DNA of 64,000 nt from assembly GCA_017792445.1 (NCBI GenBank), contig CP051232.1, positions 3,508,001 through 3,572,000 of the forward strand, given 5' to 3'. Below the pieces are notes generated by a model, which worked only from the letters and a program-made list of their open reading frames with translations, was not told where the DNA came from and made no database searches. The translations under genes and the position numbers were made by a program. This stretch comes from Maritimibacter sp. Lineage in GTDB: Bacteria; Pseudomonadota; Alphaproteobacteria; Rhodobacterales; Rhodobacteraceae. Shown here piece after piece: positions 3,010-7,864 of this stretch (position 1 is the first letter of the stretch; each line of letters starts with the position of its first letter).

Positions 3010-3038
3010 TTGGCAACCGCGCCGCGTCCGGCTAGACA
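3010..3038 (+). promoter_or_regulatory. Putative sigma-70 promoter for the cysS leader transcript
   Basis: TTGGCA (3010-3015) and TAGACA (3033-3038) are separated by exactly 17 bp. The -35 matches consensus at 5 of 6 positions and the -10 is weaker. A start site 7-8 nt after the -10 falls at 3045-3046, on the A of the leader ORF's ATG, so the transcript would be leaderless, as is known for trpL in Sinorhizobium. Confidence 0.5.
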
Positions 3039-3045
3039 CGGGGCC

Positions 3046-3090
3046 ATGACCAAGACCGTCTGCATCATCAACTGCTGCATTATCCGCTGA
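3046..3090 (+). CDS. Candidate Cys-rich leader peptide (14 codons) upstream of cysS
   Basis: This short ORF encodes MTKTVCIINCCIIR and stops at TGA (3088-3090). Three of its fourteen codons are UGC (codons 6, 10 and 11), far above the usual Cys frequency, and the gene 92 nt downstream is cysteinyl-tRNA synthetase. Tandem codons for the cognate amino acid ahead of a tRNA synthetase gene are the hallmark of ribosome-mediated attenuation. There is no useful Shine-Dalgarno sequence, but the predicted promoter places the RNA 5' end at the ATG, so leaderless translation is plausible. The assignment is inference from codon content, position and the RNA pairings that follow. Confidence 0.6.
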   Translation: MTKTVCIINCCIIR

Positions 3091-3182
3091 CATCGTCACG
3101 CGGGCCGGTCTTTTCGTTTCCTCTCATCCTCGAAATCGCCTAAGCCCGCCGCGGCTGAGTGCGTGTGCGCGAAGGAAACGAC
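3046..3182 (+). promoter_or_regulatory. Putative cysteine-responsive attenuator, with the cysS RBS sequestered
   Basis: Visible pairings are as follows. UCGUUUCCU (3114-3122) is perfectly complementary over 9 bp to AGGAAACGA (3173-3181), which contains the cysS Shine-Dalgarno. A hairpin at the leader stop codon pairs CCGCUGAC (3084-3091) with GUCA-C-GCGG (3095-3103, one bulge). GCGGGC (3100-3105) can instead pair with GCCCGC (3144-3149). AAGACCG (3052-3058) matches CGGUCUU (3106-3112). These overlap and exclude one another, as expected of a switch. The U-rich stretch at 3111-3119 could also support termination, but it lies about 7 nt from the stop-codon hairpin. Confidence 0.5.
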
Positions 3183-4595
3183 ATGACCGAGATCTGGCTC
3201 CACAACACCCGGACACGGAAGAAGGAGCTTTTCGAGCCCCTGACCCCCGACAATGTGCGGATGTATGTCTGCGGGCCGACCGTCTATGACCGGGCGCATC
3301 TTGGCAACGCGCGGCCCGTGGTGGTGTTCGACGTGCTCTACCGCCTGCTGCGTCATGTCTACGGCGCGGACCACGTGCGCTATGTGCGGAACTTCACCGA
3401 CGTGGACGACAAGATCAACGCCACCGCGCTGGCGCGGAAGGAGGCGGGGGCCGAGGGTTCGCTGGAAGACCTGATCCACGAGCGCACCGAAGAGACGATC
3501 GGCTGGTACCTGTCGGACATGGCCGCGCTGGGGGCGCTGGAGCCCACCGACATGCCGCGCGCGACCGGCTACATCGCGCAGATGATCGCGATGATCGAGG
3601 GGCTGATCGCCGGGGGCCACGCCTATGCCGCCGAGGGGCACGTGCTGTTCCGGGTGCGGTCCTACAAGGCGTACGGCGCGCTGTCGGGGCGGTCGGTCGA
3701 CGACATGATCGCGGGCGCGCGGGTCGAGGTCGCGCCCTACAAGGAGGACCCGATGGACTTTGTCCTGTGGAAGCCGTCTTCGGACGATCTTCCGGGATGG
3801 GACAGCCCTTGGGGCCGGGGACGTCCGGGCTGGCACATCGAGTGCTCGGCCATGTCCTATGAATTGCTGGGCGACAGCTTCGACATCCACGGCGGCGGCA
3901 ACGACCTGATGTTCCCGCACCACGAGAACGAGATCGCCCAAAGCTGCTGCGCCCATCCGCAGGGCGGCTTCGCGCGGTTCTGGCTGCACAACGAGATGCT
4001 GCAGGTCGAGGGAAAGAAGATGTCGAAATCGCTCGGCAACTTCTTCACCGTACATGACCTGCTGGAGCAGGGCGTGCCGGGCGAGGTGATCCGCTTCGTG
4101 TTCCTGGGGACGCATTATCGGCGGCCGATGGACTGGACGGAGAAGAAGCGGGGCGAGGCCGAGGCGGTTCTGCGCGACTGGCGGGCGCTGACGGGTGGCG
4201 TCGCACCGGCGGAGCCGGATGCCGAGGTGGTGACCCTGCTGGCCGACGACCTGAACACGGCGGGCGCGATCACGCGGCTGCATGCCCTGGCGAAGTCGGC
4301 GTCGGATGAGGCGGCGAAGGGCGTGTTCCTCGCCTCGGCGCAGTTGATGGGCCTGCTCACCGACGATCTCGGCGGCTGGGATGCGGCGGCGGAGGTCGGA
4401 GACGACGTGGCGGCGCTGATCGAGGCGCTGCTGGCCGACCGGGCCGCGGCGCGGAAGGCGAAGGACTTCGCGCGGGCGGATGCGTTGCGGGACGGGTTCG
4501 CGGCTGCTGGGCTGATCGTGAAGGATACGCCGCAGGGCGCGGAGTGGGAGATGGGGCCGGATTTCGACGCCGCCAAGCTGGAGGCGCTGAAATGA
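3183..4595 (+). CDS. cysS: Cysteinyl-tRNA synthetase
   Basis: Charges tRNA-Cys with cysteine in the cytoplasm; 470 residues, the usual length. Cys30 in YVCGPTVYD, the Cys in WHIECSAMS and the His in [10 protein letters not shown] are the zinc ligands that recognise cysteine. The class I signature appears as HLGN (39-42), a common alphaproteobacterial form of HIGH, and KMSKS is at 279-283. The start at 3183 ([10 protein letters not shown]) has the SD GAAGGAAAC 3-8 nt upstream; the in-frame extension from 3159 has no such site. The SD lies in a potential 9-bp RNA helix described separately. Confidence 0.97.
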
Positions 4596-4800
4596 CCGTT
4601 GTGTTTGAGACCAAGGGCGGCGTCCGGCCCGTGGGTGGGCGCAGAAGCGCCCGCCCTGGGGGGCGGGTCGGGCGCTGCCCGGCGGTGCCGGGCGGGGCGT
4701 GCGTGCAAGCCCGTGGGCCGGCGAGGGGGGCTGTCTGCCCCCCGCTTGCCTGCGGCAAGCCCCCCCGAGGATATTTGCAGACCAAAGAAGGAGCCGGGGC
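4596..4800. other. cysS-cimA intergenic region with a GC-rich stem and a repeat copy
   Basis: These 205 bp are almost pure GC. GCCCCCCGCTTGCC / GGCAAGCCCCCC around 4735-4767 includes a CTTGCC/GGCAAG hairpin. It runs into a copy of the dispersed CCCCGAGG-ATATTT element. I see no U-run terminator, so readthrough from cysS into cimA is possible. Confidence 0.5.
4761..4792 (+). repeat. Dispersed intergenic repeat, family 1, copy 1
   Basis: CCCCCCGAGGATATTTGCAG followed by ACCAAAGAAGGAG. It matches three other copies at 40121-40149, 40171-40200 (inverted) and 59921-59952 (inverted). Here the 3' end of the repeat, AAGAAGGAG, also serves as the Shine-Dalgarno sequence of cimA, 8-9 nt before its ATG. 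Confidence 0.65.
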
Positions 4801-6420
4801 ATGACGAAAGAGCGGCTCTACCTGTTCGACACCACCCTGCGCGACGGGCAGCAGACGCACGGGGTGCAGTTCTCGTTTCCCGACAAGGTGGCGATTGCGC
4901 GGACGCTGGACGATCTGGGTATCGACTATATCGAGGGCGGCTGGCCGGGGGCGAACCCGACCGACAGCAGCTTCTTCGCCGAGCGGCCGAAGACGCGGGC
5001 GACCTTCACCGCGTTCGGGATGACCAAGCGGGCCGGGCGGTCTGCCGAGAACGACGAGGTGCTGGCGGGCGTGATCAACGCCGAGACGCCGGCGGTGTGT
5101 CTTGTCGGCAAAACGCATGATTTCCACGTCACCACCGCGCTGGGCATCACGCTGGAGGAAAACGTCGAGAACATCCGCGCCTCGGTCGCGCATCTTGTGA
5201 AGCTGGGGCGCGAGGCGCTGTTCGATGCCGAGCATTTCTTCGACGGCTACAAGGCGAACGCGCCCTATGCACTGGAATGCCTGAAGGCGGCTTATGACGC
5301 CGGGGCGCGCTGGATCGTGCTGTGCGACACCAACGGCGGCACGCTGCCGGGCGAGGTGGCGAAGATCGTGGGCGAGGTGATCGCAAGCGGCATTCCCGGC
5401 GACCACGTCGGCATCCACACCCATGACGACACCGGCAACGCGGTGGCCAACACGCTGGCCGCCGTCGACGCGGGCGCGCGGCAGATCCAGGGCACGCTGA
5501 ACGGGCTGGGCGAGCGCTGCGGCAACGCAAACCTTGTGACGCTGATCCCGACGCTGTTGCTGAAGGAGCCGTACGCCAGCCTCTACGAGACCGGGGTGAG
5601 CGGCGCGAAGCTGCCGGGGCTGACCCGTGCGTCGCGGGCGCTGGACGACATCCTGAACCGGGTGCCGCTGCGGAGCGCACCCTACGTGGGCGCCAGCGCG
5701 TTCGCACACAAGGCCGGGCTGCATGCCAGCGCGATCCTGAAGGATCCGACGACCTACGAACATATCGACCCCGCGGCGGTGGGCAACGCGCGCATCGTGC
5801 CGATGTCGAACCAGGCGGGGCAGTCGAACCTGCGCGCGCGGCTGTCGGACATGGGGCTGGAGGTGGAAAAGGGCGACCCGGCGCTGGCGGCGATCCTCGA
5901 CGAGGTGAAGCGCAAGGAAGGCGAGGGTTATTCCTATGACAGCGCGCAGGCGAGCTTCGAGTTGCTGGCGCGCAAGGAACTGGGGCTGAAGCCGAAGCTG
6001 TTCGACGTCGAGCGGTACCGGGTGATCTCGGAACGGCGGCGCAACGCCAAGGGTCAGATCGTGGTGGAATCCGAGGCCGTGGTGACGATCTCGACCCGCG
6101 AGGGGCCGCGCACCAGTTATTACAAGAACGACCACGCCAGCGACATGATGGACGACGGTCCGGTCAACGCGCTGTGGCAGGCGTTGAAGTCGGACCTCGG
6201 GCCCTACCAGGACGGGGTCGCGGACATGCGGCTGACCGACTTCCAGGTGCGGATCACAAACGGCGGCACCGAGGCCGTCACGCGGGTCATCATCGACTTC
6301 CAGGACGACGCCGGTCGCGACTGGTCGACGGTGGGTGTTTCCGCCAACATCGTTGACGCGAGTTTCGAGGCGCTGTTGGATGCGATCAACTGGAAGCTGA
6401 TCCAAGGCGGAGCTGCATGA
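4801..6420 (+). CDS. cimA: Citramalate synthase
   Basis: Condenses pyruvate and acetyl-CoA to (R)-citramalate, the entry to threonine-independent isoleucine synthesis. The 539 residues match the long CimA form. An N-terminal TIM barrel carries FDTTLRDGQQT near residue 10 (catalytic Arg and metal Asp), and CDTNGGTLPG and IHTHDDTGNAVANTLAA supply the metal-binding residues. It is followed by ERCGNANL, YVGASAFAHKAGLHASA and a C-terminal LeuA-type regulatory domain (about 390-539). The start at 4801 uses AAGAAGGAG. The gene overlaps the next by 4 nt (ATGA). Homocitrate or 2-isopropylmalate synthase is less likely given the length and motif spelling. Confidence 0.92.
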   Translation: MTKERLYLFDTTLRDGQQTHGVQFSFPDKVAIARTLDDLGIDYIEGGWPGANPTDSSFFAERPKTRATFTAFGMTKRAGRSAENDEVLAGVINAETPAVCLVGKTHDFHVTTALGITLEENVENIRASVAHLVKLGREALFDAEHFFDGYKANAPYALECLKAAYDAGARWIVLCDTNGGTLPGEVAKIVGEVIASGIPGDHVGIHTHDDTGNAVANTLAAVDAGARQIQGTLNGLGERCGNANLVTLIPTLLLKEPYASLYETGVSGAKLPGLTRASRALDDILNRVPLRSAPYVGASAFAHKAGLHASAILKDPTTYEHIDPAAVGNARIVPMSNQAGQSNLRARLSDMGLEVEKGDPALAAILDEVKRKEGEGYSYDSAQASFELLARKELGLKPKLFDVERYRVISERRRNAKGQIVVESEAVVTISTREGPRTSYYKNDHASDMMDDGPVNALWQALKSDLGPYQDGVADMRLTDFQVRITNGGTEAVTRVIIDFQDDAGRDWSTVGVSANIVDASFEALLDAINWKLIQGGAA

Positions 6421-7121
6421 GCGACCCGATCCTGACGTTGTATCAGGGGCTGGAGCGATTGGGACCGGGGGCGCCGGAAGACGTCGCCTGGGCCGCGCAC
6501 GTGGCCGACGTGCCCCCGGACGCGCGGATCTGCGATGCGGGCTGCGGCACCGGCGCGGACATCCCGGCCTTGATGGCGGTGGCGCCGGTCGGGCATGTGA
6601 CGGCGGTGGACGAGGCGAAGCTGTTCATCGACGAGGTTCTGGCGCGCTACGGCACCACCGTCCGCGCCTATGCCGGCGACATGGTGAAGCTGAAGGGGCC
6701 CTACGATTTCATCTGGTCGGCGGGGGCGGTCTATTTCCACGGCGTCACGAAGGTGCTGCGGGCGTGGCGCCCGGTGCTGGCGAAGGGGGGCGCGGTGGCG
6801 TTCTCGGAGCCGTGCCTGTTCACCGACACGCCGTCCGAGGCCGCAGTGGCGTTCTGGGGCGGCTACACGCCGCTGACGGATGCGGCGGGCATCGCGAAGC
6901 AGGTCGGCGCGGCGGATTACGAGGTGCTGGCGACCCGGCGTGTGTCGGACGCGGCGTGGCAATCCTATTACGGCCCGCTGGCCGAGCGGGTCGAGGCGCT
7001 GCGGCGCAATGCCGATCCGGCGCTGGCGCTGGTGCTGGACGAGGCGGCGACAGAGATCGCCGCGTGGGAGACGGTGCGCGGCGAGACGGGCTATCTGCTG
7101 AGCGTGGTCCGCCCCGCATGA
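6417..7121 (+). CDS. Class I SAM-dependent methyltransferase
   Basis: A 234-residue Rossmann-fold methyltransferase of unknown substrate. Motif I is ICDAGCGTGADIPAL (about 38-52), VTAVDEAK carries the acidic residue that binds the ribose of SAM, and AYAGDMVKLKGPYDFIWSAGAVYF is the motif III/IV region. The later AFSEPCLFTDTPSE fits the Methyltransf_11/25 type. It is translationally coupled to cimA (start overlaps the cimA stop) and to the next gene (same 4-nt overlap). The operon position suggests co-expression, not a known shared pathway. Confidence 0.85.
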   Translation: MSDPILTLYQGLERLGPGAPEDVAWAAHVADVPPDARICDAGCGTGADIPALMAVAPVGHVTAVDEAKLFIDEVLARYGTTVRAYAGDMVKLKGPYDFIWSAGAVYFHGVTKVLRAWRPVLAKGGAVAFSEPCLFTDTPSEAAVAFWGGYTPLTDAAGIAKQVGAADYEVLATRRVSDAAWQSYYGPLAERVEALRRNADPALALVLDEAATEIAAWETVRGETGYLLSVVRPA

Positions 7122-7864
7122 GCCTTCAGGCCTGCGCCGATCTCGTGCGGCAAAGCGACCCCGACCGCTTTCTTGCCGCGATGGCCGCGCCGGTGCCGGC
7201 GCGCGAGGTGCTGTTTCCGCTTTATGCCTTCAACGTCGAGGTGTCGCGTGCGCCGTGGGTCACGGCCGAGCCGATGATCGCCGAGATGCGGCTGCAATGG
7301 TGGCGCGACGTGCTGGGCGAGATCCGCGCGGGCGGGCCGGTGCGGCGGCACGAGGTGGTGGATGCGCTGGCGCCGGTGCTGGACGGCGCGGCGTGCGACC
7401 TGCTGGACGCGCTGATCGAGGCGCGGCGGTGGGACATCTATTCCGAACCTTTCGAGGATGCCGAGGCCTTCGACCGGCATATCGGCGCGACCTCGGGCAA
7501 CCTGTTCTGGGTCGCGGCGCGGGCGCTTGACCCGTCCGCGGACGAGGCGGCGGTGCGGGGGCGCGGCTGGGCCGCCGGGCTGGCGAACTGGTTTCTGGCG
7601 GTGCCGGAGCTGGAGGCGCGGGGCCGGATGCCGTTGCCGGACGGGCGAGCGGACGCGGTGCGGGACTGGGCGGAGGACGGCTTGCGGCGGCTTGGCGCGG
7701 GGCCGGTATCACGCGGGGCGCGACCGGCGGTGCTGGCCGCGTGGCGGGCGCGGGGCGTGCTGAAGCGGGCGGCGGCGGACCCGGGCCGGGTGGCCGCGGG
7801 CGCGTTGCGCGAGTCAGAGTTCCGGCGGCGGTTTTCCCTGTTGCGGGCGACGTTTACCGACTGA
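7118..7864 (+). CDS. Squalene/phytoene synthase family protein
   Basis: A 248-residue all-helical protein of the squalene/phytoene synthase superfamily, shorter than true phytoene synthases and closer to the NDUFAF6-like branch common in alphaproteobacteria. Recognisable blocks are REVLFPLYAFNVEVSRAPW near the N-terminus, MRLQWWRDVLGEI and HIGATSGNLFWVAARALD. The Asp-rich catalytic DxxxD motifs are degenerate (WRDVLGE, no clear second motif), so prenyl synthase activity is doubtful. A role as a respiratory-complex assembly factor homologue is an inference. The ATG at 7118 overlaps the methyltransferase stop by 4 nt. Confidence 0.8.
   Translation: MSLQACADLVRQSDPDRFLAAMAAPVPAREVLFPLYAFNVEVSRAPWVTAEPMIAEMRLQWWRDVLGEIRAGGPVRRHEVVDALAPVLDGAACDLLDALIEARRWDIYSEPFEDAEAFDRHIGATSGNLFWVAARALDPSADEAAVRGRGWAAGLANWFLAVPELEARGRMPLPDGRADAVRDWAEDGLRRLGAGPVSRGARPAVLAAWRARGVLKRAAADPGRVAAGALRESEFRRRFSLLRATFTD

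Follow-up and report, generated by a model that had tools for sequence, protein, structure and literature searches.

A cysteine- and isoleucine-rich leader before cysS and cimA as a candidate two-input transcription attenuator in Rhodobacteraceae

The window analysed here, a stretch of 64,000 nucleotides from a Maritimibacter sp. genome assembled as a single contig, carries the cysteine--tRNA ligase gene cysS and, behind it, cimA, whose product, citramalate synthase, serves isoleucine biosynthesis. The cysS sequence is 92-93% identical to that of a genome of the same genus (G002) and 92% identical to that of Maritimibacter sp. NAT7 (L077), and these two relatives have identical 200 nt 5' of cysS. 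Since cimA lies 205 nt 3' of cysS in the window, co-transcription of the two genes is not assured; among 132 loci the cimA start is found 60 nt or less from the cysS end in 41. The features discussed, all on the plus strand, are the following.

3010..3038, + strand: predicted promoter P1, TTGGCA (3010-3015)-N17-TAGACA (3033-3038), read from the sequence, with a spacing conserved in relatives
3046..3090, + strand: putatively leaderless uORF MTKTVCIINCCIIR, 14 codons, with Cys at codons 6, 10 and 11 and Ile at codons 7, 8, 12 and 13
3052..3058, + strand: 5' arm of helix A, AAGACCG (uORF codons 3-5), from covariation and fold
3084..3103, + strand: helix B, a stop-codon hairpin pairing 3084-3091 with 3095-3098 and 3100-3103, from covariation and fold
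3106..3112, + strand: 3' arm of helix A, CGGUCUU, adjoining the U-tract, from covariation and fold
3111..3119, + strand: U-tract of a proposed intrinsic terminator, overlapping the end of helix A, from T enrichment across loci
3118..3146, + strand: probable second promoter P2, TTCCTC-N17-TAAGCC, inferred from relatives and overlapping the terminator region
3144..3149, + strand: GCCCGC, complement of the G-box at 3100-3105 (stem C), conserved, overlapping P2
3173..3181, + strand: cysS SD region (AGGAA at 3173-3177), AGGAAACGA, complementary to 3114-3122, the pairing not being conserved
3183..4595, + strand: cysS, cysteine--tRNA ligase (NCBIfam TIGR00435, 436.8 bits against a cut-off of 340)
4801..6420, + strand: cimA, citramalate synthase (NCBIfam TIGR00977, 571.6 bits against a cut-off of 450)

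All three Cys codons of the uORF are UGC, and its stop lies 92 nt before the cysS ATG at 3183. An earlier note on this DNA had described the ORF with its three UGC codons, the promoter boxes, the spacings and the complementarities, all of which agree with the sequence; it overlooked the helix 3052-3058 x 3106-3112, the Ile codons, the presence of cimA behind cysS and a published motif to which we return below.

For the comparison 110 loci (one homologue set among them being the best 80 of 584 stretches) were joined by 130 more to give 240, with named Rhodobacteraceae records such as Maritimibacter sp. NAT7 included and, among those that have the leader, Phaeobacter sp. (L059), Ruegeria sp. (L031) and Paracoccus limosus (L061); one locus had no start codon and was dropped (L068), and the remaining 239 gave 229 unique upstream regions. 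Using no promoter or structure criteria, we picked ATG uORFs with tandem Cys codons that end 40-160 nt 5' of cysS. Such a uORF is present at 153 of 227 loci. Five dinucleotide shuffles of the 227 regions gave 1, 2, 2, 1 and 1, the reverse strand gave none, and a chance origin of the leader is thereby rejected. The earlier reading of the window's ORF as a Cys-codon leader of the ribosome-mediated kind is supported. By a relaxed definition the leader is found in 199 of 229 loci, a count that includes one probably spurious non-family row (L029), and the other 30 comprise 5 non-family loci, 2 with at most 100 nt of upstream sequence and several evident variants. Loci that keep cysS and have lost the mini-ORF, which according to the earlier note would speak against the model, do occur in a minority of the family, with and without cimA, and not in the majority.

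A covariance model, R1, was built from tandem-Cys leaders, 106 out of 139, among them that of the window. The only structure in it is one 4-pair stem between a Cys codon and the G-box, so that R1 comes close to a sequence profile. It recovers the window's site in its own genome at E 6.9e-16, and as the next matches have E values of 0.3, 2.2 and 7.5, further copies of the leader in this genome are rejected. At E 0.01 it scores in 167 of 218 family genomes, and it matches 4 of 289 genomes of the class, all 4 from the same family.

The Cys codons (a TGC/TGT pair) are the most conserved part of the leader, and the pair begins at codon 9 or 10 in 116 of the 153 uORFs. Such residue-level conservation around the pair is what would be expected if an IICCI-like nascent peptide, and not uncharged tRNA, arrested the ribosome, perhaps in response to another signal. 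We consider this very unlikely, given that the number and spacing of the Cys residues vary among leaders (CC, CIC, GC, CCC) and that the targets are one Cys enzyme and one Ile enzyme. As a separate observation, the codon that follows the Cys pair (3079-3081 in the window) is ATT in 140 of 153 uORFs, and leaders as a whole use ATT 418 times and ATC 336 times, compared with 268 and 1100 times, respectively, in the sampled cysS genes.

By its position and sequence the window's leader is, in our assessment, a member of the described motif uORFC-8-2, and the attenuator as such is thus already published. In what we have of the source, the motif has 145 examples, exclusively 5' of cysS in Rhodobacterales, with tandem Cys codons, two stems and a terminal U-run, and transcription attenuation is presumed (PMC8632094). 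The statement of the earlier note that there was no described cysS case in this group was therefore wrong. The window shares with the motif the position directly 5' of cysS in Rhodobacterales, the AUG uORF and the tandem Cys codons, which stand here at codons 10-11 and not, as usually reported, at codons 14 and 15. The two published stems, the first of which holds the Cys codons, and the U-run have as their counterparts helix A, which encloses the Cys codons, helix B and the U-tract at 3111-3119, so that we infer the two published stems to be helices A and B. In the portion of PMC8632094 considered here isoleucine, cimA, citramalate and leaderless are all absent and no experimental test of uORFC-8-2 was found; no other open-licence paper was found to use this name. 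Membership in an Rfam family is rejected, since cmscan of Rfam 15 returned 3 weak, unrelated matches.

The position of the uORF relative to P1 is conserved. A TTG stands 35 or 36 nt 5' of the uORF ATG in 108 of 153 loci, every other offset from 20 to 59 accounting for fewer than 10, and TA is found at -12 from the ATG in 83 loci and at -13 in 44. Of the 153 uORFs, 14 have an SD-like tetramer in front, compared with 139 of 153 cysS starts. From this geometry the RNA would start on or beside the AUG of the uORF, as had been proposed for the window, and because the TTG keeps its distance in 108 of 153 loci, leaderless initiation at the attenuator uORF looks conserved. A generic scan of the leader region for promoters and terminators called neither a promoter nor a terminator. 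A comparable arrangement is described, in the part of the report consulted, for trpL/rnTrpL of Sinorhizobium meliloti, likewise an alphaproteobacterial attenuator, in which a leaderless uORF of 14 codons opens the RNA with its AUG; that system differs in its Trp codons, in its target trpE(G) and in having a described antiterminator, none being found in the window (PMC7298713). The leaders of actinobacterial cys operons similarly carry Cys codons in runs, close to the stop codon of a small uORF; unlike the present leader they precede, in the part of that paper at hand, biosynthesis operons and not cysS, and no terminators were found there (PMC1262725).

Pairing within the leader RNA was evaluated on 189 loci, chosen by a uORF score that counts Cys, Ile, TTG and G-box and by the presence of GCGG at most 14 nt from the stop, L029 being among them. 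By covariation, the best-supported helix is helix A, 3052-3058 x 3106-3112, whose 3' arm lies between the G-box and the U-tract. Its mean duplex energy is -8.96, compared with -6.74 when permuted (z -14.6), and helix B covaries as well (z -11.6), which upholds the stop-codon hairpin with the GCGGG box predicted earlier; the permutations for helices A and B do not remove kinship. Two control pairings were free of this effect, with z +5.3 (uORF x SD) and z +1.3 (promoter x post-G-box). A Watson-Crick helix A of at least 5 bp is present in 72% of the 189 loci and in 25% when permuted (maximum of 30 permutations 30%), and the 136 loci that have it display 80 distinct helices, for example AACCGG/CCGGTT, AACCAG/CTGGTT and GAACGG/CCGTTC, and within the genus AAGACCG/CGGTCTT, AAGACCGG/CCGGTCTT and AAAACCGG/CCGGTTTT. 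In helix B the GCGG at 3100-3103 can pair with CCGC at 3084-3087. Six loci (L008, L110, L132, L146, L150, L151) have, 3' of the uORF stop and 5' of the GCGGG box, an additional short stretch that is self-complementary.

At the U-tract the T fraction across loci is 0.55 over 12 nt, compared with 0.24 in the following 12 nt. Since helix A covaries directly beside this tract, termination near 3111-3119 is the likely switch, and on this comparative evidence we regard termination as a more likely output of the attenuator than SD masking. The 74 nt of the window fold into A and B at -22.5 kcal/mol (z -2.42, 4 of 200 shuffles equally good). Folding of the RNA out to 3200 gave no significant structure (z -0.95), and its MFE lacks helix A, which must therefore act during RNA synthesis. 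RNAalifold on a MAFFT alignment of 106 of the 139 tandem-Cys leaders recovered neither A nor B and gave instead the 4-pair stem in which the G-box pairs with a Cys codon, a result that we take as misalignment of arms whose register varies, and which still counts against the model.

The output step proposed for the window earlier was a different one, in which stalled ribosomes would free the cysS SD from an anti-SD at 3114-3122. It has an evident attraction here, because UCGUUUCCU (3114-3122) is perfectly complementary to AGGAAACGA (3173-3181) over 9 bp and the duplex of the window is strong (-13.7, the mean being -9.37). Across the 189 loci, however, an anti-SD/SD helix of at least 6 Watson-Crick pairs is found in 9%, which is the permuted level (9%; energy z -2.5). 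Among loci of the genus, the window and L002 have a perfect helix, L003 needs a G-U pair for it, in L023 the register is different, and in L006 the helix is broken. When the window's RNA was folded to 3200 the anti-SD helix was present both without a ribosome and in each of the eight stall states, and a stall would therefore not switch it. With no conserved or ribosome-dependent SD/anti-SD helix, anti-SD switching is rejected as the mechanism of the family, and such a translational switch seems to us very unlikely in the window too; in this genus the helix may lower translation of the read-through RNA.

The last of the three stems whose covariation the earlier note suggested checking is stem C. 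The GCGGGC at 3100-3105 can pair with GCCCGC at 3144-3149, the six core pairs are nearly invariant, and a seventh pair covaries (G-C 54, C-G 28, A-G 31 and C-C 15 of 140). The pairing is thus conserved, but the antiterminator-type role given to it does not hold: its 3' arm, lying 25 nt past the U-tract, would be made too late to act as one, and stem C is rejected as an antiterminator. Its conservation cannot be credited to RNA pairing alone either, as GCCCGC lies in and behind the -10 box of P2.

From this analysis it would be logical to propose, with a probability of roughly 0.6, that a ribosome-controlled transcription attenuator precedes a cysS-cimA operon. P1 would give rise to an RNA that begins at the AUG of the 14-codon leaderless uORF. 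When both Cys-tRNA and Ile-tRNA are charged, the ribosome would complete the uORF and depart, codons 3-5 would form helix A with the bases just 5' of the U-tract, enclosing helix B, and transcription would terminate at about 3112-3119. A stall on the Cys or Ile codons 6-11 would place the ribosome body over the 5' arm of helix A, and a stall at codon 11, and partly at codon 10, would mask the 5' arm of helix B as well; the terminator being thus prevented, cysS and cimA would be transcribed, while P2 would supply a basal transcript that bypasses the attenuator. In folds with an assumed ribosome footprint from -12 to +15 relative to the P site, helix A is missing when the A-site is anywhere from codon 4 to codon 11; it is present for codons 12-15 and without ribosome. 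Helix B disappears once the A-site reaches codon 11, and partly at codon 10. As in attenuators of the trp type, there are a uORF with regulatory codons and a terminator hairpin with a U-run, both read from sequence and covariation only; a competing antiterminator transcribed before the terminator is not among the features, and none appeared in folds of the window's RNA with a masked ribosome. An antiterminator would be unnecessary, because the stalled ribosome is itself the block.

The gene after cysS serves isoleucine biosynthesis, and this suggests that the leader also senses Ile. Directly behind cysS, cimA is found in 212 of 218 family loci, and also in four loci of other families (L025, L027, L028, L030). 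In 198 uORFs of loci with cimA, Ile makes up 30.2% and Cys 22.4% of residues, with Asn at 4.0%, Lys at 2.9% and Phe at 0.6%, and at least two Ile are found in 195 of the 198, the remaining three having one Ile or none. Leaders with at least two Ile occur at 195 of 212 loci with cimA behind cysS and at 0 of 13 lacking it (Fisher p 2.8e-13, without kinship correction). Six of these 13 come from the even sample and seven from a search aimed at cimA-less genomes. The six comprise three with no uORF (L018, L069, L230) and three with a Cys-uORF that has one Ile (L035, L099, L213), the latter representing two lineages, as L035 and L213 look related. A cimA match is lacking in 17 of 395 family genomes, none of the 17 having one above the citramalate-synthase cut-off; 16 have a cysS locus, and the 9 of these that show at least 650 nt behind cysS include none with an Ile-rich leader. 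The other 7, which retain Ile-containing leaders, were not counted: their sequence breaks off inside cysS or shortly behind it, no more than 154 nt from the last cysS match. In L069 and L230 cimA lies elsewhere in the genome. For two cimA genes no longer next to cysS (L342, L343), no Ile leader was found in the 500 nt before cimA.

Kinship was taken into account on a cysS tree (FastTree) with 129 of 133 rows and 11 of the 13 cimA-less loci, the leader labels of 7 being set by hand. Linkage to cimA changes 9 times on it, and 7 independent pairs are supported; in these the leader changes in the same direction in 6.2 pairs on average and in the opposite direction in 0. The kinship-corrected p has a median of 0.03 and a range of 0.016-0.125, a spread that counts against the model. 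Linkage to cimA is not the sole factor, because the leader can be absent where cimA is present: 14 of the 212 are without an accepted uORF, 2 of them with at most 100 nt of upstream sequence and one (L022) with a uORF rich in Ile and devoid of Cys. This last locus belongs to a genus (g15) with Ile-rich leaders that have no Cys in L022 (MNAPNRIIGIIIGG) and one Cys in L361 (MDAPNRLIGIIICG), with a TTG 36 nt upstream.

These data suggest that one leader senses both Cys-tRNA and Ile-tRNA for the cysS-cimA operon. The published reading of uORFC-8-2, as far as the source at hand gives it, is of an attenuator of cysS that answers to Cys only, in which case the Ile codons would be incidental, for instance an unstructured A/U-rich filler. 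The strongest conservation is indeed that of the Cys codons, and most cimA-less loci have lost the leader entirely, which could be general decay. Yet the enrichment is specific to Ile, with Asn, Lys and Phe remaining at the low levels given above, ATT and ATC are equally common before the Cys pair (55 and 54), and the two cimA-less lineages that keep a leader retain Cys and lose Ile. We therefore hold the Cys-only attenuator to be rather unlikely, and we lean, somewhat beyond even odds, towards a two-input switch in which a leaderless peptide reads Cys-tRNA and Ile-tRNA, the Ile input follows cimA and P2 is nested in the terminator region.

P2 is a probable second promoter, overlapping the terminator region, and its conservation was assessed in 141 loci picked by likeness to a 16-base consensus. 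As the TAAGCC-like box lies inside this anchor, the figures for TG, TA and GCCCGC are partly built in; TT at -24/-23 (0.99, 1.00), 17 nt before the TAAGCC-like box, lies outside the consensus. The arrangement is kept in 8 of 14 uORF-less loci, these 14 being chosen by eye from 30, compared with 0.1 in shuffles, and one of the uORF-less loci, L173, reads TTGGCG-N17-TAAGCC. In relatives the box often has an upstream TG (extended), which is missing in the window, and P2 may therefore be weaker here. The -10 box is without T at -7; such promoters are reported in Alphaproteobacteria, in the part of the source consulted, which also lists 3,015 transcription start sites of R. sphaeroides (PMC8407463).

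A single leader peptide that reports on several amino acids is known from thrL and ilvL of E. coli, where the sensed amino acids belong to one pathway. The present leader resembles them in that its codons fit the downstream products, Cys with cysS and Ile with cimA, and differs in that Cys and Ile belong to different pathways and one target is a tRNA synthetase. In the open-licence literature no report was found that joins Ile and Cys leader-peptide attenuation in Alphaproteobacteria, and among the matches listed one open-licence paper joins cimA, cysS and citramalate synthase, by its title a last-common-ancestor reconstruction. What our comparison adds to the published motif is a probable Ile input tied to cimA, together with the apparently conserved leaderless geometry and the putative nested promoter. 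If this is true, a supposedly plain Cys attenuator couples two unrelated amino-acid pathways via a 14-codon sensor, and the family becomes a comparative example, on a broad scale, of leaderless initiation in attenuation and of a promoter overlapping the terminator of another transcript. Codon-by-codon sensing is directly testable, because nature supplies the control variants: leaders with Cys and little Ile where cimA is gone, and leaders with Ile and little or no Cys in one genus.

Two further observations concern the surroundings of cimA. In several cimA-less loci (L018, L035, L346, L351, L352, L353, L357) the ORF behind cysS resembles, by eye, the window's ORF at about 7118-7864, two genes behind cimA, which suggests that cimA was excised there from an otherwise stable gene order. 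Just 5' of cimA, a stretch at about 4765-4800 of the window (GGATATTTG...GAAGAAGGA) has a similar counterpart 5' of the cimA of L342, perhaps a repeated intergenic element.
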